Part shown: positions 4,213 to 62,590 of the stretch, one piece after another
How positions within the stretch are numbered: the stretch's first letter is position 1
Layout of the letters: each line of letters opens with the position of its first letter
Assembly: GCA_963971425.1 (NCBI GenBank)
Contig: OZ020517.1
Coordinates: forward strand, 2,048,501 to 2,112,500
Length of the DNA: 64,000 nt
Reading direction: 5' to 3'
Origin: Bryoerythrophyllum caledonicum
Lineage: Eukaryota; Streptophyta; Bryopsida; Pottiales; Pottiaceae
The notes under the pieces: model-generated
What the model was told of the DNA's origin: nothing
The model's input: the letters and a program-made list of their open reading frames with translations, nothing else
Databases searched by the model: none
Program-made: the position numbers and the translations under genes

Positions 4213-6474
4213 ATGTTAAGAGAGCCTGGAATACCGGAGATCCCAGCAGAAATGGAACGTAGTTTGGAAAATATCTGCGAATTATGCAGTCAGTTCGATT
4301 TCGATTCACTAGGCCTTAAACCTTGGAACTTCTCGTTGCCTCACAGTGCTATAGAGAGATGTTATACACCGACTATCTTGGAAATGAAGGGAAGGGCTGG
4401 GACATGTGTTATCTGTAAGGAGGTGTTAGGGTTTTATAAGCAATGGATAACCCAAAACAAGGCTCTCTTAGATCCCAGTCGTTACAGGATGAACGATTGT
4501 GCTGACTTTTGTATAGATGAAATAGAGTTCAGTCCGACACAAGATGAACTTCACAAGGTGGTCCGAATGTTTGTTTACCTGGTAATAAAAAATTCGCCTG
4601 GTGAATGTGAGAGTTATTGGCCTCTTTTTCAGTTTCACAAATGGACTCCACAGTCTAGAGAAGGGAATGGGAAAAGTGCAGTAGAGAAACCTTACAACGG
4701 TCGTGAGAGGGGGGTACTAGTAAACCAAACACAACTTCTCGATTGGAAGAAAGTTTGCGACAAAAACCATGGTAACTCCTGCAAGTCAAACTCCAATATC
4801 ATGGATCACCTTGATTTCATTCGACTCATTGATGTACAGCAAAGGTGTGTTACAGTGAAAAAGGGTGGCGAGCTTGCGAACCTGGAGTATGCCGCCTTGA
4901 GCTATGTATGGGGTGATAAGAACGCGCTTGGTCGGTGTAAAATGCCCAAGCTTATGAGACGTGGAGTGAACCGTGAAGCGGCCTTGCGGCAACGAAGGGC
5001 TCTGACACCAAAGAAAGTACTTCGAACCATTGACGATGCCATGACGTTCGTAGGTAAAGGGCTTAAGTTAAAGTATCTTTGGGTTGATTGCCTCTGCATC
5101 TTGCAAGCTGGTGATGACAATAATGGCGACAAAGATACTGAAGCCGATCAAAAAAAGTTTATTAATGCCATGGACTCCATTTATGCTTGTGCGTCGGTGA
5201 CCATTGTTGCAGCAGCAGGAGACAATGCGAATGCAGGGCTTCCCGGTATCAACTCACGCTATGAAGGAGAATGCATGAAACAGAACCCTCTTCTTATCCA
5301 TAAAAGAGATAAGCCGATGGTATCAATAGTCCGAACACTTGACCTAGAGGGCTCCGGTGAGATACTACTTTCTAATTATAAGTATCTTGGAGGATCTACA
5401 TGGAACACAAGAGGTTGGACCTTCCAAGAGAAGATCTTTTCTCGAAGAACGTTCATATTTACCAAGATGCAAGTATATTGGGAATGCCAAGCAGCCACAT
5501 GGTGTGAAGATAGCATGTGGGAGACCACGGAACCTTCATTTTATCGTCATTGCTTTAATGCAGCTGAATTTCGCCTGCCCTGGAACACTATAGATGTAGA
5601 CAAATTTAGTGATAAATATCGAAAGCTGGTTGAGGAGTACAGTGAGCGGAAGTTGACACGAGAGAGCGATGGTCTGGATGCATTTACGGGTATTTTGAAT
5701 GCCTTAGGAAGAGGAACAGGTGTTCCCAAACTAGAGTTCAAGTGGGGTCTACCGTTGTCTTTCCTAGCCAATGCTCTGAAGTGGCGCTGTCCTGATCCTT
5801 TTCCGGTAACTAAATCCTGTGAGAGAAGAACAGAGAAACATCGCATTTCTAATGCCCGTAGTTGTCCATTTCCAAGCTGGTCATGGGTTGGATGGGTGGG
5901 GAAGGTACAAATGAGCATATTGGGAGTGCTTATGCTCGATTTGCATTTTTATTACCACGATGACATTGCGAAAAAACTTGTCGAGGTTGAGTGTCGTACA
6001 AGGGATCTCGATGGCATGATTCAACAAATCAGAAAAGATGATGACGAGATCGACGTTCACATCGAAGACAAAAAAGTTGAAAAAGCCTTGCGCAAGTCTG
6101 TTGCTTCAAACATATTATTCTTTTGGAGCAGCGCCACAAGATTCCAAATCAGAGTTTTACGAACTGTCGGCCATGTAGTTTGTCGTCGTGAATTAGCCAT
6201 GGGTGACCCCATTAAACTGATCATTCAGCGTCCGTGGCATGTGCCGTTACTTCCTCCAGAGTCAACACATGTTGAATATGAGCTTGTTGTCATTGGGACA
6301 GCTGAGAATAGGACTACACCATTTAAAGGGGATGAAGATGAAACTGAGTTAGCTGTGCTAGTATGCTCTGAAAATAAAAGTGAAGGTGTAGTATATCGGA
6401 TGGGACTCGTCGAGATCCCTCTTAGAGAGTGGAAGAGATGCGAACCGGAATGGAAATTGATTTGTCTTGGCTGA
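4213..6474 (+). CDS. HET-domain protein 1
   Basis: Intronless frame of 753 codons from the ATG at 4213. The frame is open upstream to an ATG at 4135, but the other two copies have no ATG there, while the ATG of MLREPG is kept in all three. Two N-terminal CxxC pairs (CELC at about residue 19, CVIC at about 69) resemble fungal HET proteins. The HET domain (PF06985 type) shows YAALSYVWG (about 225), YLWVDCLCILQ (about 289), SIYACASVTIVAAAGDNANA (about 321) and STWNTRGWTFQEKIFSRR (about 395). HET proteins trigger incompatibility cell death in fungi; the role in a plant is unknown. Compared with copies 2 and 3 this one carries an acidic insertion after LCILQ (5107-5150) and many local differences concentrated in patches. 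No membrane segment is seen. Confidence 0.88.
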   Translation: MLREPGIPEIPAEMERSLENICELCSQFDFDSLGLKPWNFSLPHSAIERCYTPTILEMKGRAGTCVICKEVLGFYKQWITQNKALLDPSRYRMNDCADFCIDEIEFSPTQDELHKVVRMFVYLVIKNSPGECESYWPLFQFHKWTPQSREGNGKSAVEKPYNGRERGVLVNQTQLLDWKKVCDKNHGNSCKSNSNIMDHLDFIRLIDVQQRCVTVKKGGELANLEYAALSYVWGDKNALGRCKMPKLMRRGVNREAALRQRRALTPKKVLRTIDDAMTFVGKGLKLKYLWVDCLCILQAGDDNNGDKDTEADQKKFINAMDSIYACASVTIVAAAGDNANAGLPGINSRYEGECMKQNPLLIHKRDKPMVSIVRTLDLEGSGEILLSNYKYLGGSTWNTRGWTFQEKIFSRRTFIFTKMQVYWECQAATWCEDSMWETTEPSFYRHCFNAAEFRLPWNTIDVDKFSDKYRKLVEEYSERKLTRESDGLDAFTGILNALGRGTGVPKLEFKWGLPLSFLANALKWRCPDPFPVTKSCERRTEKHRISNARSCPFPSWSWVGWVGKVQMSILGVLMLDLHFYYHDDIAKKLVEVECRTRDLDGMIQQIRKDDDEIDVHIEDKKVEKALRKSVASNILFFWSSATRFQIRVLRTVGHVVCRRELAMGDPIKLIIQRPWHVPLLPPESTHVEYELVVIGTAENRTTPFKGDEDETELAVLVCSENKSEGVVYRMGLVEIPLREWKRCEPEWKLICLG

Positions 6475-6503
6475 CAAATACCCAAATTAAGAAGTATCTA
6501 TGC

Positions 6504-6701
6504 TTACATGAGTTTTAGGATAGCATGTGCTCCTACACTCATGTATTTTCCATAGTTTGTTGTGAATACGTAGTTCAATTGTACTTCTTCTGGCCTGGTT
6601 TGTTTCTTGAAAAATTGAGTGTCATCCTTGCAAGTATGATACTTCTCAACTAGCTTGTCCATTGTCAAAGGCTTGAATCTACAGGCTCTAACAAATGGCA
6701 A
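6504..6701 (-). CDS. Small convergent ORF downstream of HET gene 1 (hypothetical)
   Basis: A 65-codon frame runs toward the HET stop codon. It begins MPFVRACRFKPLTMDKLVEK and ends in KLM. The same frame is open at 17644-17898 (with an N-terminal extension) and at 62620-62817, with a few amino-acid changes. I do not recognise it. It may be only the reverse strand of the HET 3' untranslated region. Confidence 0.25.
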   Translation of the reverse strand: MPFVRACRFKPLTMDKLVEKYHTCKDDTQFFKKQTRPEEVQLNYVFTTNYGKYMSVGAHAILKLM

Positions 6702-7429
6702 GTTATGTAATAGTGAGGTTCTAACGGATGAACATGACTATTGTAGCAATTTGAGCAATCTAGAAGTGTAAGGAATCTTACATTGTTTTGAATGATATAA
6801 TTAGCTCCCAAATCTTCAATGTATATTTTCAATTTTGCATGAAATTACTTATGTTGTCACAAATAAAATACATCAACATTTGAACGTTGCTAATTGTTCA
6901 AGACATTACTTATCTACAAAAGACATTATGTTGATTATATCTTATGTTAAATCTTTGTTGTAGCATAGAGCTCAATTCCAACAACTTTGAAAGTTGATGA
7001 GTGATGCTTTGATCTTTGTTTCAGGTGTTGTTTCTTAATCTCTAGGTATGATAGTGAAGTTTTGTGGGATTGTATGGGATTTTTTTTTGGAAAACCTTTT
7101 ATTTTTAAAGGTAAGGGTGTACTCAACTCATTTGTCCAATTAACTATTAGAACTACTTCCTTAATTACATTTAATATCTGACAATTGCATTAAGAAACAC
7201 ATCCTTTGCAAGATCCATGCTAATGTTGTGGTGTTGCCAGTTCATATGGAGAATATATTGGAAGCCACTCTCACAAGAAATTTGATCCATGCTAATGAGT
7301 TATCAGATCTATTCAAATAAGTGATTGAGCCCATCTCTACAAAATTATTGGTACTATTTCAACAAGTACTTAACTAATACAACTATGTCCATGATTATCC
7401 CCTGACTAATCTGTCTACTTAATGACTAG

Positions 7430-7640
7430 CCTAACAATCATTAATATGCTTCCATAATTCCAATATTCTTCTTTGGGGACATTTATACTTGTTAAGATGT
7501 CTTCCAAGTATTCTCCACAAATGCTCAATTGGATTGAGGTCATGGGAGTGTGCTTCCCATCAAAGAGGATCAAAATTCCGTACCTACACCATCGGAATGT
7601 TCTTTTGCATTCTCTACAATTGTATTCCCTTGTTTTAAAA
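7430..7640 (-). pseudogene. Tc1/mariner-type transposase remnant (copy 1)
   Basis: On the minus strand, ENAKEHSDGVGTEF (about 7620-7580) resembles the DNA..H segment around the second catalytic Asp. After a frame change, W-EAHSHDLNPIEHLWRILG (about 7560-7500) matches the DLNPIEHLW signature of Tc1-like DDE transposases. LNKYKCPQRRILELWKHIND follows. Only this C-terminal third is visible and it is frameshifted. The same remnant is at 45240-45470. Confidence 0.6.
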
Positions 7641-7799
7641 TCATAAATGTTGAATTGATATTATTCCTCTTCACCATTCCATGAAATCTCTTTGTAAGAA
7701 TTCTTTATTTTGATGATGAATTAATCCTACACAACATGCAAAAGCTTAACAACGCCATTCATCATGAAAACATCACCAAACAATATTAACATCTCTTAA

Positions 7800-8441
7800 C
7801 CCCAAAAGGCCCAATGTCCCCTCGGGGACATTTTGAGTTTGGTAGGGTACCATGTTCTCATTTTTAAGCATGATTTTCTGAGATTTTTTAATTGAACGAA
7901 CAACTATTTATTAGCTTCCTGTAGACATGATTTTTTTTAGAAATCAGACTTATTGTTCAAAAGTTACAATTTTTTTTGCAAAATCTACAAATAGTACAGT
8001 GGTTTGGTGTGACATATAACAAATATTGCAGCAATACTTTAATTAACTCTAAATTGGAATGTATTGTTGATTCTTAGCACATAGTTGCATTGCAGGATTT
8101 TTAAGAACGTCTTCTTCCCCTCTTCTACTTCTAAAATTTGATGTTAAATTAGAAAATCATGGACCGTACAGCAAAAAAATGCCCTAAAAGATGGTCGAAG
8201 TTTGATGAAGGTATTTAGTATGACCTCAAGAAGAGTTAATGTCTCACTTCAAAGGCTAATATCTTTCAATCTGTGATGTCAAACTAAACAAAACTTCTAC
8301 CACATACACTTGTACAATCTTAGTACAAGATCCTGTAGTTAGATATGTAAAAATTGGGTTTGTTTGCATATTGTGTTGAATGCATTGAAACTAGCAATTT
8401 TTTGCAAATTTGCGTGCTAAAATGCCTTAGGCCTTTAGGGG
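7800..8441. mobile_element. TTAA element A, CCCCTAAAGG family (copy 1)
   Basis: The left end is CCCCAAAAGGCCCAATGTCC after TTAA (7796-7799); the right end is GGCCTTTAGGGG followed by TTGA (8442-8445). Inverted CCC ends and a TTAA target fit piggyBac-type elements. It is 642 bp and non-coding. The right flank has one mismatch to TTAA, shared with the copy at 45645, so both copies derive from one insertion duplicated with its surroundings. Confidence 0.6.
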
Positions 8442-8742
8442 TTGAATATGTCTTGAATCACAAGGTTGTCCATCACAAATTCAACATTGTTTAACTTAAG
8501 TGCATATAGGAACGCTGAAGAACGCTGGCAAGAAAGTGGTGAATCTGTCACGTCGGCGTGTCGTGTGAAAAGGACATCGGGTCGGCCGACGGAGCTGCAG
8601 ACAGTCCCAAGGGATTGGATTGAAGAGTAGAGGAGAGGAGAGGAGAGGCGTCGCATCGACGGAGACTCACATCTAGCATGTGTGTAGAGAAAGTGCACCG
8701 TGAGGGCTGCCAATTGCATCTGTTCGTCGTGGAATTGCATGC

Positions 8743-13973: not shown

Positions 13974-14261
13974 TTAAATCACGTCTAATCGAAGCCCAGA
14001 ACTCCCAAAATGAAGACACTGGTCACCAACTTCAGAGAATTGGAAGAGATGTAGCCACAGTAGCACGTCGTGAACCCGAAAATCATGCACAGCATTCGAG
14101 GCTTCTTGTTGAAGTAGCGGTCTTCGCTCCTTCTGACGGAAGCACCCGGACGAGGTGGGAGCAGACAAGACTTTCAATGGACGGTGCAATAATGCCGGCA
14201 GTCTGTTTCGGGTGTGGGTGACCTACTCGCCCTGAAAGTCATGCACGCTACCGTGAATGAG

Positions 14262-14270
14262 TATAATATA
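14262..14270 (+). promoter_or_regulatory. TATA-like box upstream of HET gene 2
   Basis: TATAATATA in the same place relative to the GC-rich first exon-like block as in cassettes 1 and 3. Confidence 0.35.
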
Positions 14271-15382
14271 TCGCGCGTTGACTGAGAGGAGGGAAATCAC
14301 CGGGCCCACATAGCGCCAAGCAGCGTCGCCCAGAGGCGCCGAACGTCATCTCTTCTTCCTTCTCTGGATTGACTCTGGAGGTCAGCCCGCTCCATAAGTA
14401 TTAGAGGAGCGCTTCGTGTGCCTACGCGCTCGGCTTGCCCTCTACCTTGCATCAGCTGCTCTTGCTGTCGGGTCGACCTTCTGTATTTTCGTCTTGGTGG
14501 CGCTGTTCGGAGGCAGGTTGGCAGTGGAGATGCTGGACATCGGTCGCGTCCCTTTGTGGCACAAGTGAGTGTCTTCTGAATCGTGATGACATGTCGACAG
14601 TTTTTGGTGATGAGTGACCCTCTGATCTTTGTTGATTGAGGTATAGTTGTAGTGAATTTTCACAGTGGGATTGTGTAGAAGTCGGTGATTGTCATTGCGA
14701 GGAATGTCTCTTTTGCCTTGGAACTGTGAGCACGGTGATTGTTTTAGGATTCGAATGAACGTTATTCTGCCACCTCAGTGAGGGTTGGTTGGATGGATCT
14801 AATATGCACGGCTCATATGTAGCAAGTCTTTGTATCTCAATACTTTGAATCTGCATACATGTTCATTCTTAATGAGGGTTTGGACAAGTTCCGCATGTTC
14901 TTTGGCTGCTCTTTATTATCTTCCGAAATATCTTTGGTAATATATTAATACCACTGAGCTGGGAATATGATCCTTCAGTTATACGTGTTATCCAGATACA
15001 AGTGGCTGACTTGACTGTTAAGGCTGTGCGTGGTTTATCAGGAAGTCGTTCTAGAGCTTCAGGATACACTCCGTTTTTGACACACGAGGTTCTGCAGGAC
15101 ATTCCGAGCATTTCGCGCCATTTTGAGGACTATCTGGGCCAGCTTTAGCTGCAGAGGATCTCCATCATGTACGAGATCTCAGTATCAGTTTTCTGGTACG
15201 TCTGGCAGTTTCAATCCTATCTTTCAACCGGAGGAAGCTGAGCACATGCATATATTCTTGTATGAACGTTTATTGGCATTGACCCTGGGTAGGTCTGAAA
15301 GATCAGGGAAAGTGGAACAGACGATCTTCGCTCTCACACCAAGCCTTCCACTGCTACTGTTGTTGCGCCATTGACCGGCCAG

Positions 15383-17614
15383 ATGTTAAGAGAGCCTGGA
15401 ATACTGGAGATCCCAGCAGAAATGGAACGTAGTTTGGAAAATATCTGCAAATTCTGCAGTCAGTTCGATTTCGATTCACTCGGCCTTAAACCTTTCGACT
15501 TTCCGTTGCTTCACCATTCTTTGAAGAGTGTCAGATCGGGAATTTGGGAAATCGAAGGAAGGGCTGGGATATGTGTTATCTGTAAGGAGGTGTTTGGGTT
15601 TTATACTCAATGGATAACCCAAAACAAGGCTCTCTTAGCTCCCAATCGTGATTCGAAGCTTGATGATGCTAATTTTTCTATAGTGGAAGTACAGTGCAGT
15701 ACCAGTGGGAGTTACTATAAACGTAACAATTTGATCCGAATGTTTGTTCAACTGTTAATTAGTGAATGGCATCTTGGAGGTAGAAGTCATCGTCCTCTTT
15801 TTCAGTTTCAGAAATGGACTCCACAGTCTAGAGAAGGGAATGGGAAAAGTGCAGTAGAGAAACCTTACAACGGTCGTGAGAGGGGGCTACTAGTAAACCA
15901 AACACAACTTCTCGATTGGAAGAAAGCTTGCGACAAAAATCATGGTAACTCCTGCAAGTCAAACTCCAATATCATGGAGCACCTAGATTTCATTCGACTC
16001 ATTGATGTACGGCGAAGGTGTGTTACAGTGAAAAAGGGTGTCGAGCTTGCGAACCTGGAGTATGCCGCCTTGAGCTATGTATGGGGTGGTAAGAACGCGC
16101 TTGGTCGGTTTAAAGTGCCCAAGCTTATGAGACGTGGAGTGAACCGTTTAGGGGTCTTTCGGCAACCAGGGGCTCTGAAACCAGAGAAAGTACTTAGAAC
16201 CATTGACGATGCCATGACGTTCGTAGGTGAAGGGCTTAAGTTAAAGTATCTTTGGGTTGATTGCCTCTGCATCTTGCAAGATACTATAGCCGATCAAAAA
16301 ATGTTCATTAATGCCATGGACTCCATTTATGCTTGTGCGTCGGTGACCATTGTTGCAGCAGCAGGAGACAATGCTAATGCAGGGCTTCCCGGTATCAACT
16401 CACAGCATGAAGGAGAACGCATGGAACAGAACCCTCTTCAAATCCATAGAAGAGACAAGCCGACGGTATCAATTGTCCGAACACTTGACCTAGAGGGATC
16501 TGGTGAGATATTAACTTCTCAATACAAGTATGTTGGAGGATCTACATGGAGCACAAGAGGTTGGACCTTCCAAGAGAAGATCTTTTCTCGAAGGACGTTC
16601 ATATTTACCAAAATGCAAGTATATTGGGAATGCCAAGCAGCCACATGGTGTGAAGATAGCATGTGGGAGACCACGGAACCTTCATTTTATCGTCATTGCC
16701 TTAATGCACCTGAATTTCGCCTGCCCTGGTACAATAGATATGAAGGCGAATTTGCTGATAAATATCGAAAGCTGGTTGAGGAGTACACTGAGCGGAAGTT
16801 GACACAAGAGTGCGATGGTCTGGATGCATTTACGGGTATTTTGAATGCCTTAGGAAGAGGAACAGATGTTCCCAAACCAGAGTTCAAGTGGGGTCTACCG
16901 TTGTCGTCCCTAGCCAATGCTCTGATGTGGTGCTGTTTTGATGATGATCTACATTTCAATACCCTTGAGAGAAGAACTGAGAAACATCGCATTTCTAATG
17001 CCTGTAGTTGTCCATTTCCAAGTTGGTCATGGGTTGGATGGGTGGGGAGGGTAAGTATGGTGTTGACATTGGGATATCTAATGCTCGAATTGCATTTTTA
17101 TTACCACGATGACATTGCGAAAAAACTTGTCAAGGTTGAATGTAATACAAAGCGTCTTGATGGCATGATTCTTCAAATCAGAAAACCTGATGACGGGATT
17201 GACGTTCACATAGAAGACGAAAAAGTTGAAAAAGCCTTGCTCAAGTCTATTGCTTCGAATATATTATTCTTTTGGAGCAGCGCCACAAGATTCCGAATCC
17301 GAGTTGATCAAACTTCCGGTACTGTATATTGTCGTCGTGAATTCGCCACGGGTGACTTCATTGAATTGTCCATGTATAATCGGTGGCATATGCCATTACT
17401 TCCTCCAGAGTCAACACATGTTGAATATGTGCTTGTTGTCATTGGGACAGATGATGTTAAATATGAACCATTTGAAGAGAGAGCTAGGGTAGTTGTGCTA
17501 GTATGCTCTGAAAATAAAAGTGATGGCGTAGTATATCGGATGGGACTCCTCCCGATCCATCTTAGAGACTGGAAGAGATGTGAACCAGAATGGAAATTGA
17601 TTTGTCTTGGCTGA
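15383..17614 (+). CDS. HET-domain protein 2
   Basis: Intronless frame of 743 codons from the MLREPG ATG, the first in-frame ATG. N-terminal CKFC and CVIC pairs are kept. The HET core is intact: YAALSYVWG, YLWVDCLCILQ, SIYACASVTIVAAAGDNANA, STWSTRGWTFQEKIFSRR. Long runs are identical to copies 1 and 3, yet patches are quite different: 15640-15790, 16144-16190, 16730-16760, 16930-16970 (CCFDDDLHFNTLE against CPDPFPVTKSCE in copy 1), 17050-17095, 17300-17390 and 17455-17490. Leader and TATA-like site are shared with the other copies, so similar expression is likely. The short LQDTIADQKM segment lacks the acidic insertion of copy 1. Confidence 0.88.
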   Translation: MLREPGILEIPAEMERSLENICKFCSQFDFDSLGLKPFDFPLLHHSLKSVRSGIWEIEGRAGICVICKEVFGFYTQWITQNKALLAPNRDSKLDDANFSIVEVQCSTSGSYYKRNNLIRMFVQLLISEWHLGGRSHRPLFQFQKWTPQSREGNGKSAVEKPYNGRERGLLVNQTQLLDWKKACDKNHGNSCKSNSNIMEHLDFIRLIDVRRRCVTVKKGVELANLEYAALSYVWGGKNALGRFKVPKLMRRGVNRLGVFRQPGALKPEKVLRTIDDAMTFVGEGLKLKYLWVDCLCILQDTIADQKMFINAMDSIYACASVTIVAAAGDNANAGLPGINSQHEGERMEQNPLQIHRRDKPTVSIVRTLDLEGSGEILTSQYKYVGGSTWSTRGWTFQEKIFSRRTFIFTKMQVYWECQAATWCEDSMWETTEPSFYRHCLNAPEFRLPWYNRYEGEFADKYRKLVEEYTERKLTQECDGLDAFTGILNALGRGTDVPKPEFKWGLPLSSLANALMWCCFDDDLHFNTLERRTEKHRISNACSCPFPSWSWVGWVGRVSMVLTLGYLMLELHFYYHDDIAKKLVKVECNTKRLDGMILQIRKPDDGIDVHIEDEKVEKALLKSIASNILFFWSSATRFRIRVDQTSGTVYCRREFATGDFIELSMYNRWHMPLLPPESTHVEYVLVVIGTDDVKYEPFEERARVVVLVCSENKSDGVVYRMGLLPIHLRDWKRCEPEWKLICLG

Positions 17615-17643
17615 CAAATACCCAATTTAAAAAGTATCTATGC

Positions 17644-17898
17644 TTACATGAGTTTTAGGGCTGCATGTGCTCCTACACTCATGTATTTTCCATAGTTTGT
17701 TGTGAATACGTAGTTCAATTGTACTTCTTTTGGCCTAGTTTGTTTCTTGAAAAATTGAGTGTCATCCTTGCAAGTATGATTATTCTCAACTAGCCTGTCC
17801 ATTGTCAAAGGCTTGAATCTACAGGCTCTAACAAATGGCAAGTTATGTAATAGTGAGGTTCTAACGGATGAACATGACTGTTGTAGCAATTTGAGCAA
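17644..17898 (-). CDS. Small convergent ORF downstream of HET gene 2 (hypothetical)
   Basis: 84 codons. The last 65 correspond to the small ORFs after HET genes 1 and 3, with changes such as DRLVENN for DKLVEKY. The N-terminal extension starts MLKLLQQSCSS. Not recognised; may be non-coding. Confidence 0.25.
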   Translation of the reverse strand: MLKLLQQSCSSVRTSLLHNLPFVRACRFKPLTMDRLVENNHTCKDDTQFFKKQTRPKEVQLNYVFTTNYGKYMSVGAHAALKLM

Positions 17899-18229
17899 TC
17901 TAGAAGTGTAAGGAATCTTACATTGTTTTGAATGATATAATTAGCTCCCAAATCTTCAATGTATATTTTCAATTTTGCATGTAATTACTTACGTTGTCAC
18001 AAATAAGATACATCAACATTTGAACGTTGCTAATCGTTCAAGACATTACTTATCTACAAAAGACATTATGTTGATTGTATCTTATGTAAAATCTTTGTTG
18101 TAGCATAGAATTCAATTCCAACAACTTTGAAAGTTGATGAGTGATGCTTTGACCTTTGTTTTAGGTGTTGTTTCTTAATCTCTAGGTATGATAGTGAAGT
18201 TTTGTGGGATTGTATGGGATTTTTTTTTT

Positions 18230-18870
18230 GAAAATGTGGTGCTAATTGTGAATATTGTAGTCCATGTCCTTTGGTGTGGAGCTGAAAGCATGTTGTTTGT
18301 TTTGAGTTCAAATTAGCGTTATCAGGGTTTGGGTCTTTCTCTATTCTATCCTTCATCTTCCTAAACGTCTTTGATATTTGAGGAATAGCATAGAGCTGGG
18401 ATCATGATTCCTCAACTGTACCTTAACCAAATACAAGTAGGTATCTTGAAGGGTGGGATTGTGGGTGGAGAATTTGAAGGTTGTTTTGAGAGCTTTAAGT
18501 TATTTTCATGTGTTTGACATGCGTAGATTTTGTAAGAAGTTGTCATTTTGGGCCCCAAGGATGGTTTGTTTCAAGGTTTGCTGCAGAACACCCCCGCAAT
18601 CGTAGTTAACAAACTTCTTGTAGAATTTGAAGTACCTTCACATGTAAACCGTAATCCTAAACTCTCCCTACACTACTTAGTAACTAAATAAACTACAGTA
18701 CGCTACACACACTACACTAATGTATCATGAACCCTTCTCCTCACCCTCACTCTCATCATGCAATAAATGCCACTCATCAATTCACATTATACTGAAGCAT
18801 GTCCTCTAGATATTCGGGAGTTGCTAGACTAGTTGCAAACATCTCTGGCCCGAGGATGGGTTGCTTGCGG
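18230..18870 (+). repeat. 3' flank of the HET cassette containing a diverged copy of the HET leader
   Basis: Shared with 63190-63830. The part at 18350-18550 aligns by eye, at low identity, with the leader just upstream of HET gene 2 (14900-15090): ATCTTCC..., GAGCTGGGA..ATGAT.CCT, CCA.ATACAAGT.G, TTGA..G. It may be the leader of an older, lost HET copy. No HET frame follows. Confidence 0.45.
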
Positions 18871-41890: not shown

Positions 41891-41892
41891 TA

Positions 41893-42164: not shown

Positions 42165-42206
42165 GGTAAAAGAATAAGAGAGAGGAAAATTTCAAAGAAC
42201 TGATCC

Positions 42207-45470: not shown

Positions 45471-45644
45471 TTAAAAATCATAAATGTTGAATTGATATTA
45501 TTCCTCTTCACCATTCCATGAAATCTCTTAGTAAGAATTCTTCATATTGATGATGAATTTTCCCTTTAATCCTACGGAACACGCAAAAGCTTTGCAACGT
45601 CATTTATCATGATAACATCACCAAACAATATTTACATCTCTTAA

Positions 45645-46291: not shown

Positions 46292-46725
46292 TTGAATATG
46301 TCTTGAATCACAAGGTTGTCCATCACAAATTCAACATTGTTTAACCCCTAAAGGACCAAGTGTCCAAAAAGGACTTTTTGAAAGTTTGGTCAAGTTCCTA
46401 TGGTGTCAATTTCCAACATTCTTCTTTGAAGTTTTACTACAGAAAGACATTACCAAGATCTTAGTGGAAAAACAATTTTTTCCTAAATTGGACATTTGAT
46501 GAAAAAGTTATAGGGTTTTGAATTTCAAATGGGGAGGGCGGGCACCTCGGGCACCTCCAAAAACTTTTGATAGGACACTCTATTGAAAGTGAGATTTTCA
46601 GTACTCGCAAGTAATATTATTTCCCTTCATATTGTCAAAAAAAAGTTTTTGTCTTTAGTAAAAAATAGCACACCAACCCAAGTCAAACATTTTCACACAT
46701 TGTCACTCATTGTCGGGCAAGGTAC

Positions 46726-49397: not shown

Positions 49398-51650
49398 ATG
49401 CATAGCAGGTATAATCTAGAAAGAGAGGAGTCCTTGACCACACATTTCGAAGCAACGTTGTGGACACAATTTTTGCATCGACGTGAGCAAGAGTCTCGTC
49501 AAGACTATCAAAAGTTAAAAGAACAACGAACAAATCGTATCATCATGGTTTCTATACCAGTCTTCACGGGAAAAGAGAAAGAGGATCCAGAGCGTTTCTT
49601 GAAACAATTTCAGAGAGCTTGCATGGCGAATGGGGATCGAAGCGAACAAAGCTGGTTAGAGTTGCTACCCATTCACTTCGACGATACATCATCATTCTGG
49701 TATGAACGGCAAACTCAACAAACCCGGTCAACATGGGACATACTCACGACGGCGCTTATTTCAGAATTTCAAGAGAAAGAGAGCTACCAAACGCTCCTAG
49801 GCACTCTCAGCCTCATGCGGCAGCGTGAAGAGGAGACAGTACGTCAATTCAGTGAAAGAGTGAGAGAAATTCAATCCCGAATACAACGAAGCTTGAGAGC
49901 AACCAGTGTTACGCATGATGGAGTAAAAGTGGGTGATGAGGACCGTACTTCAGCAACCATCTCCAGCATCGATGTTTTAGCATTAAGAAGTTTTATTGGT
50001 GGTTCGAAACCCACAATACAAGAAATAGTTGCCTGGAAGGAGCCTAGCACTTTTGAAACGGCCCTTGTGCTTGCGCAGAAGAAAGAAGCGAATCTAATCA
50101 GCATTGCGCAACCACAAATACTCACAGCAGCTGTTACACCTGTCGTGACCCGGTTGGTACAGACAACTCCTGTTATAACTGAAGCTATCAACGACTTATC
50201 CGCCAAGAACAATGACATTTCTCAGCTTGTTTCAGAAATGAGAGATTTAAACTTATTCATGATACAAGGTCAGAGTTCGTTGCGCTCTAAATGCCCAGTT
50301 GCGGACAATAGACCAAACATCAACAAGAACGTCCAATTTGTTACATGCCATAAGTACCGAAGGAAAGGTCATTATCGGTCGGATTGCCCCGACTTGGATA
50401 AAACCCCAGCCGTTTCTACAGCTAAGTTGGCTGAGGTAAATCTGCTACAAGTAATGCCCTCGTCACGAGTTCAAGAATTGGATCCTGAAGTAATGATGGC
50501 TAAAAGAAGCCGGCCACACAAAGAACCTGAGGAGCATACGAAACATATGCATATGAAACATAGAGACAAGCGTTTCCGAGCTGACAAACGAGAATCTACC
50601 AAGAGACCACGGCGCAAAATCGGCATTGATGGCTTATTGCTTAGTAGAGGTCAATCAGAATACTCAATAATCCAAGACTTAAGTAAACGAACGGCAAATA
50701 TTACTGTTGGTCAATTGGTAGCGCGATGTCCCTCATTACGGCGCGAATTACGGGAAGGCATTAGTACGAGAAGACGCAAACAAATTGCAGAGGTCAACGT
50801 GGCTGAGAAAGCAAGCGGGGATTTAAGGTCGCCGCAGGTGGAAGCAATGGTTAACGGATGCGAAGTTAGTGGTTGTCTAATAGACGGTGGCGCGGCAATT
50901 AATGTGATATCAAGTTGGTTCATGAATGCAGCCGGACTTGAGCCAAACAAACTATCATCGATACGACTAAAGGTTGTCGATCAAAGATGCGTCCGTTCTT
51001 TGGGGCAGATAAGCCAAATCCCAATGACTGTAAACGGAGTTACTGTGAAACTTGATTTCCATGTACTTGATATTTCATCAGGAAAGGGTGGATACCCCAT
51101 GATCTTGGGCAGAGCGTGGCTCAGACAAGTCTGCGCGGTTAATTATTGGGATAAAGGCAAGATGAAGATTGGTACTTCACACAATCGCGTCAGTATACGT
51201 GTAATACCGGATGCATGTGCAAGTTCGTTGGAAACTAGCTCATCGGAAGATTGTTCAAGTTCTGAGGGACAGGAAGACTCGTCATGGAAGTCCGAACCTG
51301 ACGATAATTCAAGCGTCGAGAGTGACATTTCAGAAGCTGAGCTATACGCTTTAGATGTCCTTCCACAAGTTGTCAGCGATTCAATGCAGTTCATTGACGA
51401 CCAAGATGTTGAACAAACTGGGCAAAATGAATTATTGAATAAAGTCAAATTTGGGCCAACATTAACGATTCAAGAAAGAACAGATTTAGAAGGATTGGTA
51501 TTAGAATATTCTGACATTTTTGTAACCAGACATTGCGATTTACCTGCAATTACTGTGGATGAGCATCAAATCGAATTAACCGAAGCTGCTCGACCAGTAA
51601 GATCGAAACAAAAGCGCATGGCTCCTGAAAAGATGAGTGTATTAAGAGCA
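49398..51650 (+). mobile_element. gag and protease region of the Ty3/gypsy element
   Basis: The gag core is visible at about 49550-49900 (FTGKEKEDPERFLKQFQRAC, FSERVREIQ). A zinc-knuckle-like segment (CHKYRRKGHYRSDC) lies near 50346, and the retropepsin active-site region (GCLIDGGAAINVIS) near 50873. Part of a fossil element. Confidence 0.8.
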
Positions 51651-52779
51651 GTTGGATCGTTTACTGGAAGGAGGTTTTATCACAGAAGTAAAAAACACCG
51701 AGTGGGTCTCGCCAGTTGTAATCGTGCCCAAGAAAGGAGGGAAGTGGCGAGTGTGCGTAAATTACAAAGCATTAAATAAGTTTACAAAGAAGGATCGGCA
51801 GCCATTACCTCATATTGATGAACTTTTAGACGAGGTAGCGGGGCATGAAATGTTTACTTTTTGTGATGGCTACGCCGGATATCATCAAGTGAAGGTGCAC
51901 AAAGATAGCATCTTATATACTACCTTCACTACTCCGTGGGAATCATATGCTTATTTAAGAATGCCTTTCGGTTTGTGTAATGCCGGAGGCACTTTTCAAA
52001 GAGTGCAGCTAAAAATTTTTGGTCCTTACATCAGTCAATTCATCCACGTTTATCTTGACGATTTTGCTGTATATGGCAACCGAATCAAACACGTGCAACA
52101 GGTCAGAGCTGCCTTTCAAAAATTGCGTGAACACGGATGTTCTTTGTCTCCTGAAAAATGCAGAGTCGGTTTTGAAGAAGGTCCGCTTCTCGGGCATATA
52201 GTGTTTGCTGGGGGCATACGAGTGGATCCAGATAAAGTGAAACGAATAAAAGAGATGACTCAACCCATCTCACGCAAACAAGTCGCAAAATTGTGGGGAG
52301 CCACGATTTATCACAATCGATTTATACCAAATTTGGCAGGTATTGGGCGCCCCATAAGCGCACTAATCAGCAAAGCTTCTCCCTTCATATGGGGCGACCA
52401 GTGTGAGCAAGCATTCTCATATATTAAAGAAAGATTGGCGAGCGATCCAATAGTCAAAAATCCCATATGGGACAAAGAATTCATTGTAAGTCCATCCGCC
52501 ACTGAACATGCAGTCGCGGCAGTACTACTTCAAAATGACGAGGCTGGAAGGGCACACCCTATTTATTACGCAAGCAGGCTATTGACCTTATGTGAGCAAA
52601 AGTATGCTCCTCTCGAAAAGCTAGGACTAGCTTTGTTATTCGCGTGTACAAAATTCAAGCATTATTTGCTCTCGAGCAGCCAATCAATCTTAGTACAAAG
52701 TGACGTGGAAGGTTTGAAGCAGTTGTTACAACAAAAAGATCCTGAAGGAAGAAGTGCACGATTAATGGCCGCTTTGTAG
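51650..52779 (+). mobile_element. Reverse transcriptase and RNase H region of the Ty3/gypsy element
   Basis: RT motifs WVSPVVIVPKKGGKWRVCV, MPFGLCNAGGTFQRV and HVYLDDFAVYG (near 52046) are followed by the connection and RNase H part (VAAVLLQNDEAGRAHPIYYA, near 52510). Typical Ty3/gypsy spacing. Part of a fossil element. Confidence 0.9.
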
Positions 52780-52794
52780 AACTACGACCTGGAG

Positions 52795-53392
52795 GTGAAA
52801 ACTGTCAAAGGTACGCGGACTTCTCACACAGGGCTACTCCTCGAACTGGGGAATCCACCACAAGAAGACCTTGGAGCTTTGTCGGATGATGTCGAGTGTT
52901 TTGTTTTGGCCACAGAGGCCGAACCGGACATTTTTGGTTATGAAGGAATAAAGTTGTACCTTAAAACATTGAGTTTCCCCGAAGGCTCTGAATCAAGACA
53001 AAGACAAAAAATTCGAAGGCAGAGTCAGACATATTCACTCGTTGGGGAGGACCTCTGTAAGAAAGGCAAGGACGGTGTCTTAAGGCGAGCTGTGACAGTC
53101 GAAGAATCGAGAGATGTACTTAAACAATGTCATGAGGGTTTATGCGGAGGACACTTCTCTACCGAGACAACTGTAAGGAAGATACTACAAGGTGGTTTTT
53201 TCTGGCCTACTATTTTTCATGATAGTAATGAATATTGTCGCAGCTGTTATCAGTGCCAAGCTTACGGCAAAAGAATCATACCCTACACGGAATTGCAACC
53301 AATATATCCAACTAGAGTTTTTGAGAAATGGGGAGTGGATTTCGTCGGACCCCTACCTATGACGGCCAAACGAAATGAATATTTGATTGTGG
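52795..53392 (+). mobile_element. Integrase N-terminal region of the Ty3/gypsy element
   Basis: The zinc-binding HHCC part (HEGLCGGHFSTETTVRKI, CRSCYQCQAYGKR) lies near 53130-53270 and the start of the catalytic core (WGVDFVGPLPM) near 53330. The solo LTR follows. The rest of the core and the C-terminal region are at 55537-56350. Confidence 0.85.
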
Positions 53393-55536
53393 TGTGAGCC
53401 GCAAAAACGGCTCACGGTGATGAATGGACCTCACATCGGGTCCATTAAGGCTAATGAGTGGTGAAAATGGGTTATCCCATTGGTTAGCTCGTGGTCTTTT
53501 GATCAAAATGGCTAAATAGCCTTCCATGCGCTAATTTCTTAACTAGGACCCACTTATTGGCAATCCTGGAATTTAGGTAGTTAGCAAAAAATAAATAAAT
53601 AGAAAGGAAAAAATGAAGACAAGACAAAAAAGACAAAACAAAAAAAACAATAGAAAAGATTAAAATTAATAGTGGTGGAGAAGAATTTACCTCCTACCAA
53701 GTTGTAGACCGTAATTGGTCACGATGAAGAAATCACGAAACCAAAAAAAAAAAAAAAGGAAGAAGAAGAGAGATGATGGTGAGGGGAAGAAAAAAAGAGG
53801 AGGCTTAAAAGCCCTTTTAAAAATAGTGGAAAAGGTCCAAAAGGCTTGGACAAACCCCCATCACTCGCTAAGTAAAATTAGGAATTACCCCAAGCAAGGG
53901 GAATTCAATCTAGGTAGATTAAATTAGAGTTAGCATCCTTGGAAATTAGCCAATAGCTCACTTATTGAGATCATGCGCACCCATGTGGCATGGAGTTAAT
54001 GTTTAGATTTAGATATTCCTTGGTTAGTGGGACACCCACTCTTGTTAAATGCAAGGGTGGCACGGAATTAGTAGTCATAGGGTTAGTAGGGTTTGTAAGA
54101 GGGAAGCCATTTATGGAAGAAGGCCAAAGGCGGCAGGGAACTTCTTTGGGAACTCAAGGAGAGCAAGGGTTGGGAGGTTACCCCCTGGAGAGGTCTCATT
54201 CGGGTGTGTGCAAGAGTGTGGGAGAGACTGAATTGTGGGAGAGACTGAATTGCGGGAGAGACTGATTTGTGTTGGGGGAGAGCTGGAAGCCCCAACCTCG
54301 AACTAGTTCACGAGCTGGAGCAAGATCACACGACGAACAAGAGGAGGAAGATCACACGACGAACAAGAGGAAGAAGATCGCACGAGCTGGAGCAAGATCA
54401 CACGACGAACAAGAGGAGGAAGATCACACGACGAACAAGAGGAAGAAGATCGCACGAGCTGGAGCAAGATCACACGACGAACAAGAGGAAGAAGATCGCA
54501 CGAGCTGGAGCAAGATCACACGACGAACGAGAGGAGGAAGAGTACACGAGCTGGAGCAAGATCACGAGACGAACAAGAGGAAGAAGATCGCACGAGCTGG
54601 AGCAAGATCACACGACGAACAAGAGGAGGAAGAGCACATGAGCTGGAGCAAGATCAGACGACGAACGAGAGGAGGAAGACCACACGAGCTGGAGTGAGCA
54701 GTTCGAAGGCTAAGGATGGAGGGTGAACCGAATTAAATCAGGGAGCCCTTTCCTCCCTCGGACCTCTTAAATTCCTTGTGTAGGACGTGAAACCTAATTT
54801 TTTAAATACAAAAAAACACGCGGAAGCGCTGCCAATTTTTTGGTAGAATTAGGGTTTGCTATATATTCAACTAAACAATCGATTAAAACGCCATTAGCAA
54901 GTGAACGCAGCTGGAGGCTCATTCTTAGTAAGGCTGGAGTGGATTCTTGTGCGAATGGATGTGGTATATGCGTAGGAATGTGGTGCACGAACTTGAATAA
55001 AATCACATGTTGAAGGTGCACTGCTGGTCGCTGGCTGTGAGGTCCAGGGTCGAGTCAATTGACCAATTGAATGCTGCCATCATGTTAAGCACAAAAAACT
55101 AATAAGAATAAAAAAAACAAACATAAGAATCGGAGTTAGAGTCAAGGAGATAATTAGGATTATAAGTTTGTAGAAAATAGGGAAGCCTGTCTGCTGCCAA
55201 CTGGTTCCAGGGTCACACCTAAGCCTGAAACTGATCACTAAGGGTCTAATCAAGTTTGGGATGCTGAATTGAACCCATAAGAGTTGAAAACGTTGCATTC
55301 GGGGCCCTAGAGCAAAAGTTACGCTTGTTCAAAGGTGGGCTCAATTAAGAGGCTGGATTAAGTCACCACCTCACTAATCAACCACAAGGAACCTAAGTGA
55401 ACATGAGATGTGTCACCATGCTTGTATGAGTCGTGTATGAATGGGCTAAGGATTGGTTACACAAGGAACTAGGCCCCGTATTAGGATCTTGTGTTCAAGA
55501 TAAGCCACCCTATAGGGGCGGTTTATTTGGCTCACA
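53393..55536. mobile_element. Solo LTR inserted in the integrase region
   Basis: 2144 bp, beginning TGTGAGCC and ending GGCTCACA, flanked by the 5-bp direct duplication TGTGG (53388-53392, 55537-55541). TG...CA ends, inverted tips, a 5-bp duplication and no internal domains or repeated ends indicate a solo LTR of an unrelated retrotransposon. It is younger than its host element. Contains the GA-rich array below. Family unknown. Confidence 0.75.
54309..54690 (+). repeat. GA-rich tandem repeat array inside the solo LTR
   Basis: Two alternating motifs, AGCTGGAGCAAGATCACACG and ACGAACAAGAGGAGGAAGAT, repeat about seven times with variable composition. The array stays open in two forward frames, a consequence of its composition rather than evidence of a gene. 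Confidence 0.85.
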
Positions 55537-56350: not shown

Positions 56351-56370
56351 TTCACCAAATCAGGTTCTCA

Positions 56371-58266: not shown

Positions 58267-59238
58267 TTAACCCTTAAACGCCAAAGCAACCAGAAATTGG
58301 CTCTCGGATGACATTGTTGGATGATAATCAACGTAAACAACTATTTTTCATCCAATTATTTTCTTAGGAGAGTTCCTTGAATGTACAAGCATTAGATGAT
58401 GATGAAACCGGCCTCATTGAGGTAATCATGTTTTATTTAAGAAAGAAAATGCTTGTGACACGGATCTCAATACAATGAAATTGAGAAACTTCTAGCTTTA
58501 GCTCTAAATCTGAATTCAAGCCTTCAAAATGATATTTATTGAATTTGAGTCCAACTAATGAAATGAAGCTAATGATGTCTAGTTTCCATACCATTTTGAA
58601 AATTAAAAAAATACGTAAAACTGAATAAGTTGTTGCAATTTGAAATTGGACCTATAATCGTGGTTCTAATTTTAGCCGAACACGGAACTTTCATTTAAAC
58701 TTGAAGTTTTGGCACTATAATGTCCACCTTTGGTGAAATTTTCAAATTTTTTTAGCATATTTGTAATTAATATGAATTTTCTTCACTTTTTCTCCAGAAA
58801 ATCACAATAAATCCAAATTTCCACACATTTATCTGTGATTTTTGTAACACAATTGAGACATATGATCTCATCTCTGAATTTTCACTTATGTTTGATGAGA
58901 AACTAGTGCATACGATTGATTGAAAATTTAGATTGATGCCACGGTCATAGGCTCCATAATAAAGGATTGAATCACAGAACTCCCAAAACGAAGACACTGG
59001 TCACCAACTTCAGAGAATTGGAAGAGATGTAGCCACAGTAGCACGTCGTGAACCCGAAAATCATGCACAGCATTCGAGGCTTCTTGTTGAAGTAGCAGTC
59101 TTCGCTCCTTCTGACGGAAGCACCCGACGAGGTGGGAGCAGACAAGACTTTCAATACACGGTGCAATAATGCCGGCAGTCTGTTTCGGGTGTGGGTGATC
59201 TACTCGCCCTGAAAGTCATGGACGCTACCGTGAATGAG

Positions 59239-59247
59239 TATAATATA
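59239..59247 (+). promoter_or_regulatory. TATA-like box upstream of HET gene 3
   Basis: TATAATATA in the same position as in cassettes 1 and 2. Confidence 0.35.
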
Positions 59248-60358
59248 TCGCACGTTGACTGAGAGGAGGGAAATCACCGGGCCCACATAGCGCCAAGCAG
59301 CGTCGCCCAGAGGCGCCGAACGTCATCTCTTCTTCCTTCTCTGTATGGCCTCTGGAGGTCAGCCCGCTCCATAAGTATTAGAGAAGCGCTTCGTGTGCCT
59401 ACGCGCTCGGCTTGCCCTCTACCTTGCATCAGCTGCTCTTGCTGTCGGGTCGACCTTCTGTATTTTCGTCTTGGTGGCGCTGTTCGGAGGCAGGTTGGCA
59501 GTGGAGATGCTGGACATCGGTCGCCGTCTCTTTGTGGCACAAGTGAGTGTCTTCAGAATCGTGATGAAATGTCGACAGTTTTGGGTGATAAATGACCCTC
59601 TGATCTTTGTTGATTGAGGTATAATTGTGGTGAATTTTCACAGTGGGATTGTGTAGAAGTCGGTGATTGTCATTGCGAGGAATGTCTCTTTTGCCTTCGA
59701 ACTGTGAGCACGGTGATTGTCTTAGGACTCGAATGAACGTTATTCTGCCACCTCAGTGAGGGTTGGTTGGATGGATCTGATATGCACGGCTCATATAGCA
59801 AGTCTTTGTATCTCAATACTTTGAATCTGCATAGATGTTCATTCTTAATGAGGGTTTGGACAAGTTCCGCATGTTCTTTGGCTGTTCTTTATTATCTTCC
59901 GAAATATCTTTGATAATATATTAATACCACTGAGCTGGGAATATGATCCTTCAGTTATACGTGTTATCCAGATACAAGTGGCTAACTTGACTGTTAAGGC
60001 TGTGCGTGGTTTATCAGGAAGTCGTTCCAGAGCTTCAGGATACACTCCGTTTTTGACACACGAGGTTCTGTAGGACATTCCGAGCATTTCGCGCCATTTT
60101 GAGGACTATCTGGGCCAGCTTTAGCTGCAGAGGATCTCCATCATGTACGAGATCTCAGTGTCAGTTTTCTGGTACGTCTGGCAGTTTCAATCCTATCTTT
60201 CAGCCGGAGGAAGCTGAGCACATGCATATATTCTTGTATGAACGTTTATTGGCATTGACCCTGGATAGGTCTGAAAGATCAGGGAAAGTGGAACAGGCGA
60301 TCTTCGCTCTCACACCAAGCCTTCCACTGCTACTGTTGTTGCGCCTTTGACCGGCCAG

Positions 60359-62590
60359 ATGTTCAGAGAGCCTGGAATACTGGAGATCCCAGCAGAAACG
60401 GAAAGTAGTTTGGAATATATCTGCGAAGTATGCAGTCAGCTCGATTTCGATTCACTTGGCCTTAAACCTCGAGACTTTCCGTTGCCTCACCGTTCTTTGG
60501 AGAGTGTCGATTCGAAAATCTCGGAAATCAAAGGAAGGGCTGGGACATGTGTTATCTGTAAGGAGGTGTTCGGGTTTTATACTGAATGGATAACCCAAAA
60601 CAAGGCTCTCTTAGGTTTCGAACGTTACCGGAAGGACGATATTGCTGAGTTTTGTATAGATATATTACAGTACAGACCGGATTCCTTTAAACGTAACAAG
60701 TTGGTCCGAATGTTTGTTCAACTAGGAATAAAAATATCGCCTGATGTACGTGAAAATCATCGTCCTCTTTTTCAGTTTCACAAATGGATTCCACAGTCTG
60801 GAGAAGGGATTGGGAAAAGTGCAGTAGAGCAACCTTACAACGGTCGTGAGAGGGGGGTACTAGTAAACCAAACACAACTTCTCGATTGGAAGAAAGCTTG
60901 CGACAAAAACCATGGTAACTCCTGCAAGTCAAACTCTAATATCATGGAGCACCTTGATTTCATTCGACTCATTGATGTACGGCCAAGGTGTGTTACAGTG
61001 AAAAAGGGTGTCGAGCTTGCGAACCTGGAGTATGCCGCCTTGAGCTATGTATGGGGTGGTAAGAACGCGCTGGGTCGGTGTAAAATGCCCAAGCTTATGA
61101 GACGTGGAGTGAACCGTGAAGGGGTCTTGCGGCAACCAGGGGCTCTGAAACCAGAGAAAGTACTTAGAACCATTGACGATGCCATGACGTTCGTAGGTGA
61201 AGGGCTTAAGTTAAAGTATCTTTGGGTTGATTGCCTCTGCATCATGCAAGATACTATAGCCGATCAAAAAATGTTCATTAATGCCATGGACTCCATTTAT
61301 GCTTGTGCGTCGGTGACCATTGTTGCAGCAGCAGGAGACAATGCTAATGCAGGGCTTCCCGGTATCAACTCACGCTATGAAGGAGAACGCATGGAACAGA
61401 ACCCTCTTCAAATCCGTAGAAGAGAGAAGCCGACGGTATCAATAGTACGAACACTTGACCTAGAGGGATCTAGTGAGTTAATATGTTCTGAATATAAGTA
61501 TGTTGGAGGATCTACATGGAGCACAAGAGGTTGGACCTTCCAAGAGAAGATCTTTTCTCGAAGAACATTCATATTCACCAAGATGCAAGTATATTGGGAA
61601 TGCCAAGCAGCCACATGGTGTGAAGATAGCATGTGGGAGACCACGGAACCTTCATTTTATCGTCATTGCTTTAATGCAGCTGAATTTCGCCTGCCCTGGA
61701 ACACTGTAGATGAAGGCGAATTTGATAGGAAATATGGAAAGTTGGTTGAGGAGTACACTGCACGGAAGTTGACACAAGAGAGCGATGGTCTGGATGCATT
61801 TACGGGTATTTTGAATGCCTTAGGAAGAGGAAGAGGTGTTCTTAAACTAGAGTTCAAGTGGGGTCTACCGTTGGCTTTCCTAGCCAATGCTCTGAAGTGG
61901 CGGTGTCATTTTTCTTATCCGGACCACAAAACCCTTCGCAGAAGAACTGAGAAACATCGCATTTCTAATGCCCGTAGTTGTCCATTTCCAAGCTGGTCAT
62001 GGGTTGGATGGGTGGGGAAGGTAGAAATGAGCTTTATAGTGAGAGCACTAACGCTCGGTTTGCATTTTCATTACCACGATGACATTGCGAAAAAACTTGT
62101 CAAGGTTGAGTGTCGTACAAGGGATCTCGATGGCATGATTCATCATATCAGAAAAGATGATGAGATCAACGTTCACATCAAACACAAAAAAGTTGAGAAA
62201 GCCTTGCGCAAGTTTGTTGCTTCAAACATATTATTCTTTTGGAGCAGCGCCACAAGATTCCGAATCGAAGTTTTTCAATCTTTCGGCCTCGTATTTTGTC
62301 GTCGTGAATTCGCCACGGGTGACCCCATTGAACTGGTAATTTATAAGCCGTGGCATATGCCATTACTTCCTCCACAGTCAACACATGATGAATATGAGCT
62401 TGTTGTCATTGGGACAGCTAAGACTATGTTGAGACCATTTAAAGGGGATGAAGATGAAGCTGAGTTAGCTGTGCTAGTATGCTCTGAAAATAAAAGTGAA
62501 GGCGTAGTATATCGGATGGGAGTCGTGGAGATCCCTCTTAGAGAGTGGAAGAGATGTGAACCAGAATGGAAATTGATTTGTCTTGGCTGA
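60359..62590 (+). CDS. HET-domain protein 3
   Basis: Intronless frame of 743 codons from the ATG of MFREPG. CEVC and CVIC pairs at the N-terminus; HET core motifs YAALSYVWG, YLWVDCLCIMQ, SIYACASVTIVAAAGDNANA and STWSTRGWTFQEKIFSRR are intact. It resembles copy 1 in some patches (FKGDEDE near 62440, CRTRDLDGMI near 62110) and copy 2 in others (LQDTIADQKM-like near 61245, ALKPEKVLRT), so it looks like a mosaic. It is unique in others: 60605-60760, 61475-61490, 61903-61945 (CHFSYPDHKTLR) and 62265-62345. Leader and 3' flank match the other copies. Function in plants unknown. Confidence 0.88.
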   Translation: MFREPGILEIPAETESSLEYICEVCSQLDFDSLGLKPRDFPLPHRSLESVDSKISEIKGRAGTCVICKEVFGFYTEWITQNKALLGFERYRKDDIAEFCIDILQYRPDSFKRNKLVRMFVQLGIKISPDVRENHRPLFQFHKWIPQSGEGIGKSAVEQPYNGRERGVLVNQTQLLDWKKACDKNHGNSCKSNSNIMEHLDFIRLIDVRPRCVTVKKGVELANLEYAALSYVWGGKNALGRCKMPKLMRRGVNREGVLRQPGALKPEKVLRTIDDAMTFVGEGLKLKYLWVDCLCIMQDTIADQKMFINAMDSIYACASVTIVAAAGDNANAGLPGINSRYEGERMEQNPLQIRRREKPTVSIVRTLDLEGSSELICSEYKYVGGSTWSTRGWTFQEKIFSRRTFIFTKMQVYWECQAATWCEDSMWETTEPSFYRHCFNAAEFRLPWNTVDEGEFDRKYGKLVEEYTARKLTQESDGLDAFTGILNALGRGRGVLKLEFKWGLPLAFLANALKWRCHFSYPDHKTLRRRTEKHRISNARSCPFPSWSWVGWVGKVEMSFIVRALTLGLHFHYHDDIAKKLVKVECRTRDLDGMIHHIRKDDEINVHIKHKKVEKALRKFVASNILFFWSSATRFRIEVFQSFGLVFCRREFATGDPIELVIYKPWHMPLLPPQSTHDEYELVVIGTAKTMLRPFKGDEDEAELAVLVCSENKSEGVVYRMGVVEIPLREWKRCEPEWKLICLG

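Follow-up and report, generated by a model that had tools for sequence, protein, structure and literature searches.

Positive selection on short variable patches around a near-constant HET domain in a clustered moss gene family

Three paralogous HET-domain genes of the moss Bryoerythrophyllum caledonicum, here called c1, c2 and c3, encode proteins whose long similar stretches are broken by about ten short patches of difference, and in the larger group of genes to which they belong these patches have diversified under positive selection, with gene conversion between copies. We regard it as probable that the family combines a constant death module with diversified patches into an NLR-like repertoire for the recognition of microbial ligands. 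Moss HET genes as such have already been published: genes of fungal origin, in regions named FR1 and FR2, were described in Physcomitrium patens (Sun et al. 2020, New Phytologist, as cited in passages of PMC7911284 and PMC11228847), and the initial annotation's view that plant HET genes are a novelty fails as such. What appears to be new here is diversifying selection on a clustered plant HET family; in searches of open-licence PMC papers, we found no report of diversifying selection, conversion or clusters of plant HET genes.

Results

HET genes in the window and in the moss genome

The window, a stretch of 64,000 nucleotides at positions 2048501-2112500 of a 32-Mb contig (C4), holds three intronless forward-strand ORFs: c1 at 4213-6474 (753 codons from the common ATG), c2 at 15383-17614 (743 codons) and c3 at 60359-62590 (743 codons). 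The ORF list and matches to the HET profile PF06985 (E-values of 7.1e-24, 3.8e-27 and 4.6e-27, respectively) confirm all three where they had been claimed; the scores of 85-96 bits compare with a curated cut-off of 22.5, and the matches cover profile positions 1-146 of 146 in each protein. An ATG is also present at 4135 ahead of c1, and the Ceratodon relative begins at the same Met as the 4213 start. Eighteen columns are invariant across 65 HET rows, c1-c3 among them. In a Pfam profile search of c1-c3, no family other than HET passes its cut-off; a single match of c3, to VMAP-M8 (E 0.12), falls below threshold. NACHT, WD40, NB-ARC, TIR and LRR give no match in the three proteins at E-values up to 1, and repeats are absent. 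A sequence search for a solved relative gave nothing convincing (two matches, E 0.7-0.8), Rfam gave no match, and no relative was found among plasmids, phages and viral contigs.

The three genes were duplicated together with their surroundings, as blocks of 4-5 kb that are 91-92% identical. The noncoding DNA duplicated along with c1 lies upstream at 2815-4212 (13991-15382 for c2, 58966-60358 for c3), with a pairwise divergence of 2.5-3.4%, and downstream at 6475-7094 (17615-18234 for c2, 62591-63210 for c3), with 3.6-4.5%. Every gap among c1-c3 is in frame and all three copies are free of stops, a state that survived in only 0.0025-0.011 of trials when 110-150 changes per copy (an estimated share) were placed by random substitution.

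A six-frame HET search of the 437-Mb moss genome (894 contigs) returned 74 matches, all above cut-off, on 12 contigs; the same domain had no match in 14 control genomes. Eleven matches lie on C4 (1.76-2.26 Mb), 25 on contig C1 (6.96-7.53 Mb), five on contig C2 (near 38.3 Mb) and 33 elsewhere. An uninterrupted frame of at least 550 aa is found in 50 of the 74; the other 24 are broken, short or partial, which we count against our preferred explanation. The C4 set analysed below comprises nine copies (c1-c3, L009, L010 and L012-L015), two fragments having been excluded; 16 of the 25 copies were taken from C1 and all five from C2. One C4 member, L013 (2727-4971), is a decaying copy that loses its frame just short of the common C-terminus, and it was masked near the 3' end where this happens. 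Two others on the minus strand, L014 and L015, lack the common Met-x-Arg-Glu-Pro-Gly start and their frame opens just ahead of the common sequence; their start or first exon may differ. On C1, the 25 matches are packed into 0.57 Mb (C1:6960627-7530447; L018-L028 and L034-L038), L022 being the same as L034, and with other copies broken.

When a database of 5.8 billion proteins was searched, the best HET match among the top 120 of 784 came from the moss Ceratodon purpureus (66% identity), and none of the others in those 120 exceeds 45%. The window also carries a fragment of the plant gene MAG2, which shares 74% identity with its Physcomitrium patens counterpart and 81-87% with six metagenome proteins, about 60% of the query being covered. 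Given this fragment, the Ceratodon relative and the 32-Mb contig, the HET cluster resides on a moss chromosome. In a quick tree, the HET protein of Ceratodon chromosome 10 groups with seven of the nine C4 copies and leaves L009 and L010 outside (SH-aLRT 98); part of the duplication thus predates the Ceratodon split. Some other HET proteins of the moss genome fall near fungal proteins, on long branches, in the same tree, a hint that the genes may have several origins.

Variable patches in otherwise similar proteins

The protein comparison of c1-c3 bears out the initial annotation's picture of about ten short patches in otherwise near-alike proteins. In c1 coordinates (with c2 and c3 in brackets), they lie at 4333-4380 (15503-15547, 60479-60523), where 13 of 16 columns are variable, at 4474-4563 (15641-15736, 60617-60706), with 27 of 32, and at 4582-4620 (15755-15793, 60725-60763), with 12 of 13. 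Further along are the patches at 5584-5613 (16730-16759, 61700-61729; 9/10 columns), 5785-5823 (16931-16969, 61901-61939; 12/13), 5908-5934 (17054-17083, 62024-62053; 8/10), 6151-6174 (17300-17323, 62267-62290; 6/8), 6214-6234 (17363-17383, 62330-62350; 6/7) and 6301-6354 (17450-17494, 62417-62470; 15/18). The patch at 5785-5823 had been put forward as a 12-codon example, rightly so, since 12 of its 13 residues vary between near-unchanged flanks. The patches previously listed at 4471-4620, 5580-5625, 5905-5945, 6150-6240 and 6300-6350 were likewise recovered, the one at 4974-5010 being weaker (8 of 20 codons variable). The patch at 4333-4380 had been missed, as had a nine-codon stretch of c1 at 5107-5133 that is missing from c2 and c3 and found in L009, L010, L013 and Ceratodon P0001. 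The sameness outside the patches had been slightly overstated: long stretches are indeed alike, with 0.081-0.085 substitutions per site over the three copies.

Counted in windows of 10 residues, variable positions of c1-c3 have a dispersion of 1.98, compared to 0.71 after shuffling (z 11.6), and the clumping is thus far beyond chance. Variable residues make up 35% of the N-terminal part, 18% of the HET domain and 29% of the C-terminal part, and all nine C4 proteins have the identical pattern of constant stretches and patches. An origin of the patches in alignment shifts was rejected, most of them being free of gaps. Among 11 other pairs of HET proteins, ten have z values of 0.5-7.4; the remaining one is a pair of paralogues on Ceratodon chromosome 2 (z 11.9, differing at 47 of 679 columns), in which identical runs of more than 100 residues are separated by differences in patches and one gene model has a doubtful stretch. 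For the closest relatives, the positions of the patches agree well (rho of 0.73 and of 0.69); the agreement with most other pairs is weak (rho 0.02-0.43), which again counts against our preferred explanation.

Positive selection outside the HET core

Among c1-c3, there are 0.172 substitutions per site at zero-fold sites (243/1411), 0.099 at fourfold sites (25/253) and 0.048 in the nearby noncoding DNA. Inside the patches, the three codon positions change at 0.407, 0.391 and 0.270 per site, and outside them at 0.081, 0.085 and 0.085. Second positions in the patches are changed about threefold more than fourfold sites (97/248 vs 9/66, p 6e-5). When site classes are defined from the entropy of 61 further homologues, and thus independently of c1-c3, pN/pS among the three copies rises from 0.31 through 0.99 and 1.28 to 1.60 from the conserved to the variable classes. 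Two observations count against selection as the sole cause: synonymous change is itself raised about twofold in the patches (15 of 117 same-residue codons vs 24 of 386, p 0.03), and beyond the patches the mean dN/dS of c1-c3 is close to 1. Of the expectation that dN/dS exceeds 1 in the patches and falls below 1 elsewhere, the first part therefore stands, while values below 1 are confined to the most conserved quartile (0.31) and to one class of the site models on nine C4 copies (omega 0.05-0.34).

The noncoding flanks were dropped as a neutral yardstick. Their divergence is too uneven, at 2.5-4.5% close to c1-c3 and 4-9% in further duplicated blocks, and ranging across the nine C4 loci from 2.4 to 26.5% upstream and from 3.3 to 38.8% downstream; synonymous sites were therefore used instead. 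Of the 36 pairs of C4 copies, 23 have a dN that exceeds dS. We wrote codon models for the present analysis that allow free synonymous-rate classes and multi-base changes, and compared fits in which omega is at most 1 with fits in which it is free. For the three copies, the log-likelihood improves from -4817.22 to -4808.09, and for the nine C4 copies from -9011.28 to -8971.79 (2dlnL 79.0); the free fit assigns 13.7% of codons to a class with omega 6.2 and 24.7% to one with omega 1.45. By part, and with each outer part on its own tree, 2dlnL is 41.6 for the N-terminal and 39.9 for the C-terminal part, and 5.7 for HET. In 20 null simulations of the C4 set, generated on part-specific trees and hence including recombination, the same statistic reached at most 11.4. 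The diversifying selection suggested in the initial annotation is thus supported by omega values above 1 that go beyond null simulations with recombination. The classical M1a/M2a comparison was dropped as evidence: it gave 135-271 in all 20 null replicates, which contain rate variation and recombination and no omega above 1. This inflation is why we prefer the rate-variable test, even though the M1a/M2a value observed on nine copies, 373.0, lies above all 20 null values.

A posterior above 0.95 under M2a, which shares the null inflation of the M2a test, is assigned to 78 codons of the nine C4 copies: 32 of 225 in the N-terminal part, 4 of 172 in HET and 42 of 348 in the C-terminal part. HET thus holds far fewer than the remainder (4/172 vs 74/573, p 1e-5), and its four selected codons lie within 376-380 of c2, at the far edge of the domain. 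The rate-variable model gives 46 codons with a posterior above 0.9, spread as 14, 4 and 28 over the same three parts. Positive selection is thus found outside the conserved core, as it is for fungal-type allorecognition (het) genes, here between paralogues. Selected sites also tend to alternate at lag 2, an excess that local shuffling equals in 44 of 3000 trials when posteriors are used, in 113 of 3000 when diversity is used, and in 396 of 3000 for the C-terminal part alone; such weak alternation is only suggestive of exposed strands.

The signal recurs in other clusters. The C1 cluster represents another HET subfamily, in which 14 copies could be read as ORFs, 11 of them full-length and 10 distinct; it has a pooled pN/pS of 1.03, a patchiness z of 9.6 and a rate-variable test value of 58.0. 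Its upstream 1.2 kb, compared in nine copies, has a mean divergence of 23%, which exceeds that of the coding sequence, so that the notion of coding DNA evolving faster than noncoding DNA fails for C1. For C2, where three of the five copies are full-length, the corresponding values are 1.51, 4.5 and 11.9; the last is about the largest C4 null value, and the C2 signal is weak by itself.

Gene conversion and other sources of change

Gene conversion, also proposed in the initial annotation, is supported by the comparison of c3 with L012. Over the first 1200 columns of their alignment, in which patches are included, the two have 6 differences, compared to 114 over the last 1300, and their upstream DNA is alike near the start and diverges by about 5% further out. 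A near-identical, conversion-like tract with divergent DNA on either side provides firm evidence for conversion. The trees of the separate parts of the C4 genes conflict, with c3 beside L012 for the N-terminal part and beside L015 for the C-terminal part, so that N-terminal patch sets can end up joined to different C-terminal sets. A mosaic test on the three copies is clear on all sites; when sites are thinned to 6, 12 and 20 bp the median p is 0.0, 0.02 and 0.05, which we call weak. A PHI-like test on the nine copies is marginal to clear: out of 500 shuffles, 39 match the observed value at k 5, 17 at k 10 and 1 at k 20.

We also considered that mutation itself is directed to the patches, by a retroelement- or deaminase-like diversifier or by the copying of cassettes, with selection in a secondary role. 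The packing of changes into short tracts is what such a process would produce. It would also be expected to leave base-specific changes and nearby donors, and neither is seen within the window: no base is preferred (patch rates of 0.35 for A, 0.40 for C, 0.44 for G and 0.33 for T), and matches of the patches to potential donor copies within the window are no longer than for shuffled codons. We give this possibility hardly any credence.

Discussion

The explanation we favour would work as follows. The HET domain, which the literature links to TIR domains and to the execution of cell death in fungi, stays near-constant at the centre of the protein; positive selection after gene duplication has diversified short patches on either side, and conversion between paralogues reshuffles them. 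The patches would bind varied non-self, microbial ligands, and recognition by the flanks would release HET for death or defence signalling within the same cell. From the sequences we infer ligand binding, cell death and an immune role for the moss HET proteins, and a fungal origin for the C4 subfamily.

Parts of this scheme have precedents. According to excerpts of PMC10890737, PMC10197012 and PMC12881547, the fungal HET domain is held to be distantly related to TIR and able to trigger the death of cells. In the Podospora anserina het-B (BH) protein, as presented in parts of PMC10890737, HET is more constant than the remainder and specificity is set by the variable non-HET part; in BH the HET domain is N-terminal and a lectin fold forms the C-terminal end, whereas the moss HET is central. 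A central HET in a long non-NLR protein is found in Neurospora crassa pin-c/het-c, and pin-c shows positive selection and haplotype recombination (sections of PMC2988816), although its variation is between alleles at a single locus and that of the moss between paralogues of one genome. HET paralogues that diversify through positive selection and exchange are reported in the Podospora hnwd (HET-NACHT-WD40) family, from which c1-c3 differ by lacking the NACHT and WD40 matches and the repeats. The P. patens genes of FR1 and FR2 are also PF06985 genes on moss chromosomes; as far as the cited passages describe them, they have a truncated HET and occupy two regions, in contrast to the full-length copies, 74 clustered matches and diversifying selection seen here. 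Plant NLRs share with the moss family the clustering of paralogues, patch-wise positive selection and conversion, but c1-c3 give no match to their NB-ARC, TIR or LRR domains at E-values up to 1, and HET takes the place of the TIR or CC module. One point of the fungal comparison counts against our explanation, namely that most fungal HET genes are, as far as known, not recognition genes (PMC10890737 and PMC12881547, in part).

The same selection signature is predicted by an arms race of allorecognition or internal conflict, in which the patches would be matched to the moss's own proteins, for instance when kin are recognised at fertilisation, when hybrids are incompatible, or within a selfish killer-and-rescue pair. 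Fusion of vegetative cells is not known in mosses, so that microbial ligands seem likelier than self, and dozens of copies in several subfamilies are more like a repertoire than a single mating or killer locus. In favour of such a role, the fungal HET genes with comparable signatures, pin-c and het-B, are allorecognition loci (PMC2988816 and PMC10890737, in excerpt). We consider it possible and rather unlikely. It is also conceivable that novelty is not selected at all, and that the patches of weakly constrained duplicates are mutation hot spots or older tracts spared by conversion. The dN/dS near 1 outside the patches, the raised synonymous change inside them, the presence of conversion and the broken copies are all in keeping with this account. 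Against it stand the much worse fit of models with omega at most 1 even when synonymous-rate classes are free, beyond anything in the null simulations with recombination, the threefold excess of second-position change in the patches, and the small chance that c1-c3 would remain stop-free under random change; we judge this account distinctly improbable. Finally, the protein could be a diversified defence or regulatory protein without death signalling, in which the HET fold has taken on a new use as an enzyme or scaffold bearing binding loops that vary. Our literature searches gave no function of a moss HET protein, and the mode of action of HET is stated to be unknown in the part of PMC10890737 concerned. 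The combination of a constant HET with variable flanks nevertheless matches fungal recognition proteins (same source and PMC2988816, in part), and we find this reading very doubtful.

NLRs are regarded as the main basis of intracellular recognition in plants. Whether the moss HET genes, with dozens of clustered copies on several chromosomes, a conserved death module resembling TIR, and patches that evolve separately at the N- and C-terminal ends, constitute a further innate recognition repertoire of mosses, a plant receptor class drawn from a fungal kit, is in our estimate an evenly balanced question. If they do, a receptor class that combines a TIR-related module with variable surfaces of its own would have reached plants from another kingdom, and moss HET genes would make a role of HET beyond fungal incompatibility testable in genetically tractable plants.

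Other features of the window

Several further features lie between the HET genes. On the forward strand, at 35126-36186, the ORF 35126-36088 has no Pfam match and aligns over 187 aa, at 43% identity, with the N-terminal portion of P0022, a HET protein; a second, overlapping frame is 44% identical to P0010. The region is a frame-broken relative of a protein that precedes HET in the P0022 and P0010 models. By resemblance, it may belong to the HLP (HopQ1-like) family named for the P. patens regions. The MAG2 fragment, a 3' portion at 42689-44663 (forward strand), lies between blocks at 40679-42688 and 44921-46345 that also flank the c1 unit (1-1980 and 7097-8495) at 92-93% identity, so that the flanks are alike and the contents differ. 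Adjoining ORFs on the reverse strand at 26477-28259, two of them without a Pfam match at E-values up to 0.1, resemble, by eye, the remnant of a hAT/ZBED-type transposase. The forward strand at 49398-53397 carries ORFs of a Ty3-type retroelement (gag and protease, reverse transcriptase with RNase H, and the zinc-binding part of an integrase), and tandem-like repeats at 54305-54694 have open frames on the forward strand.
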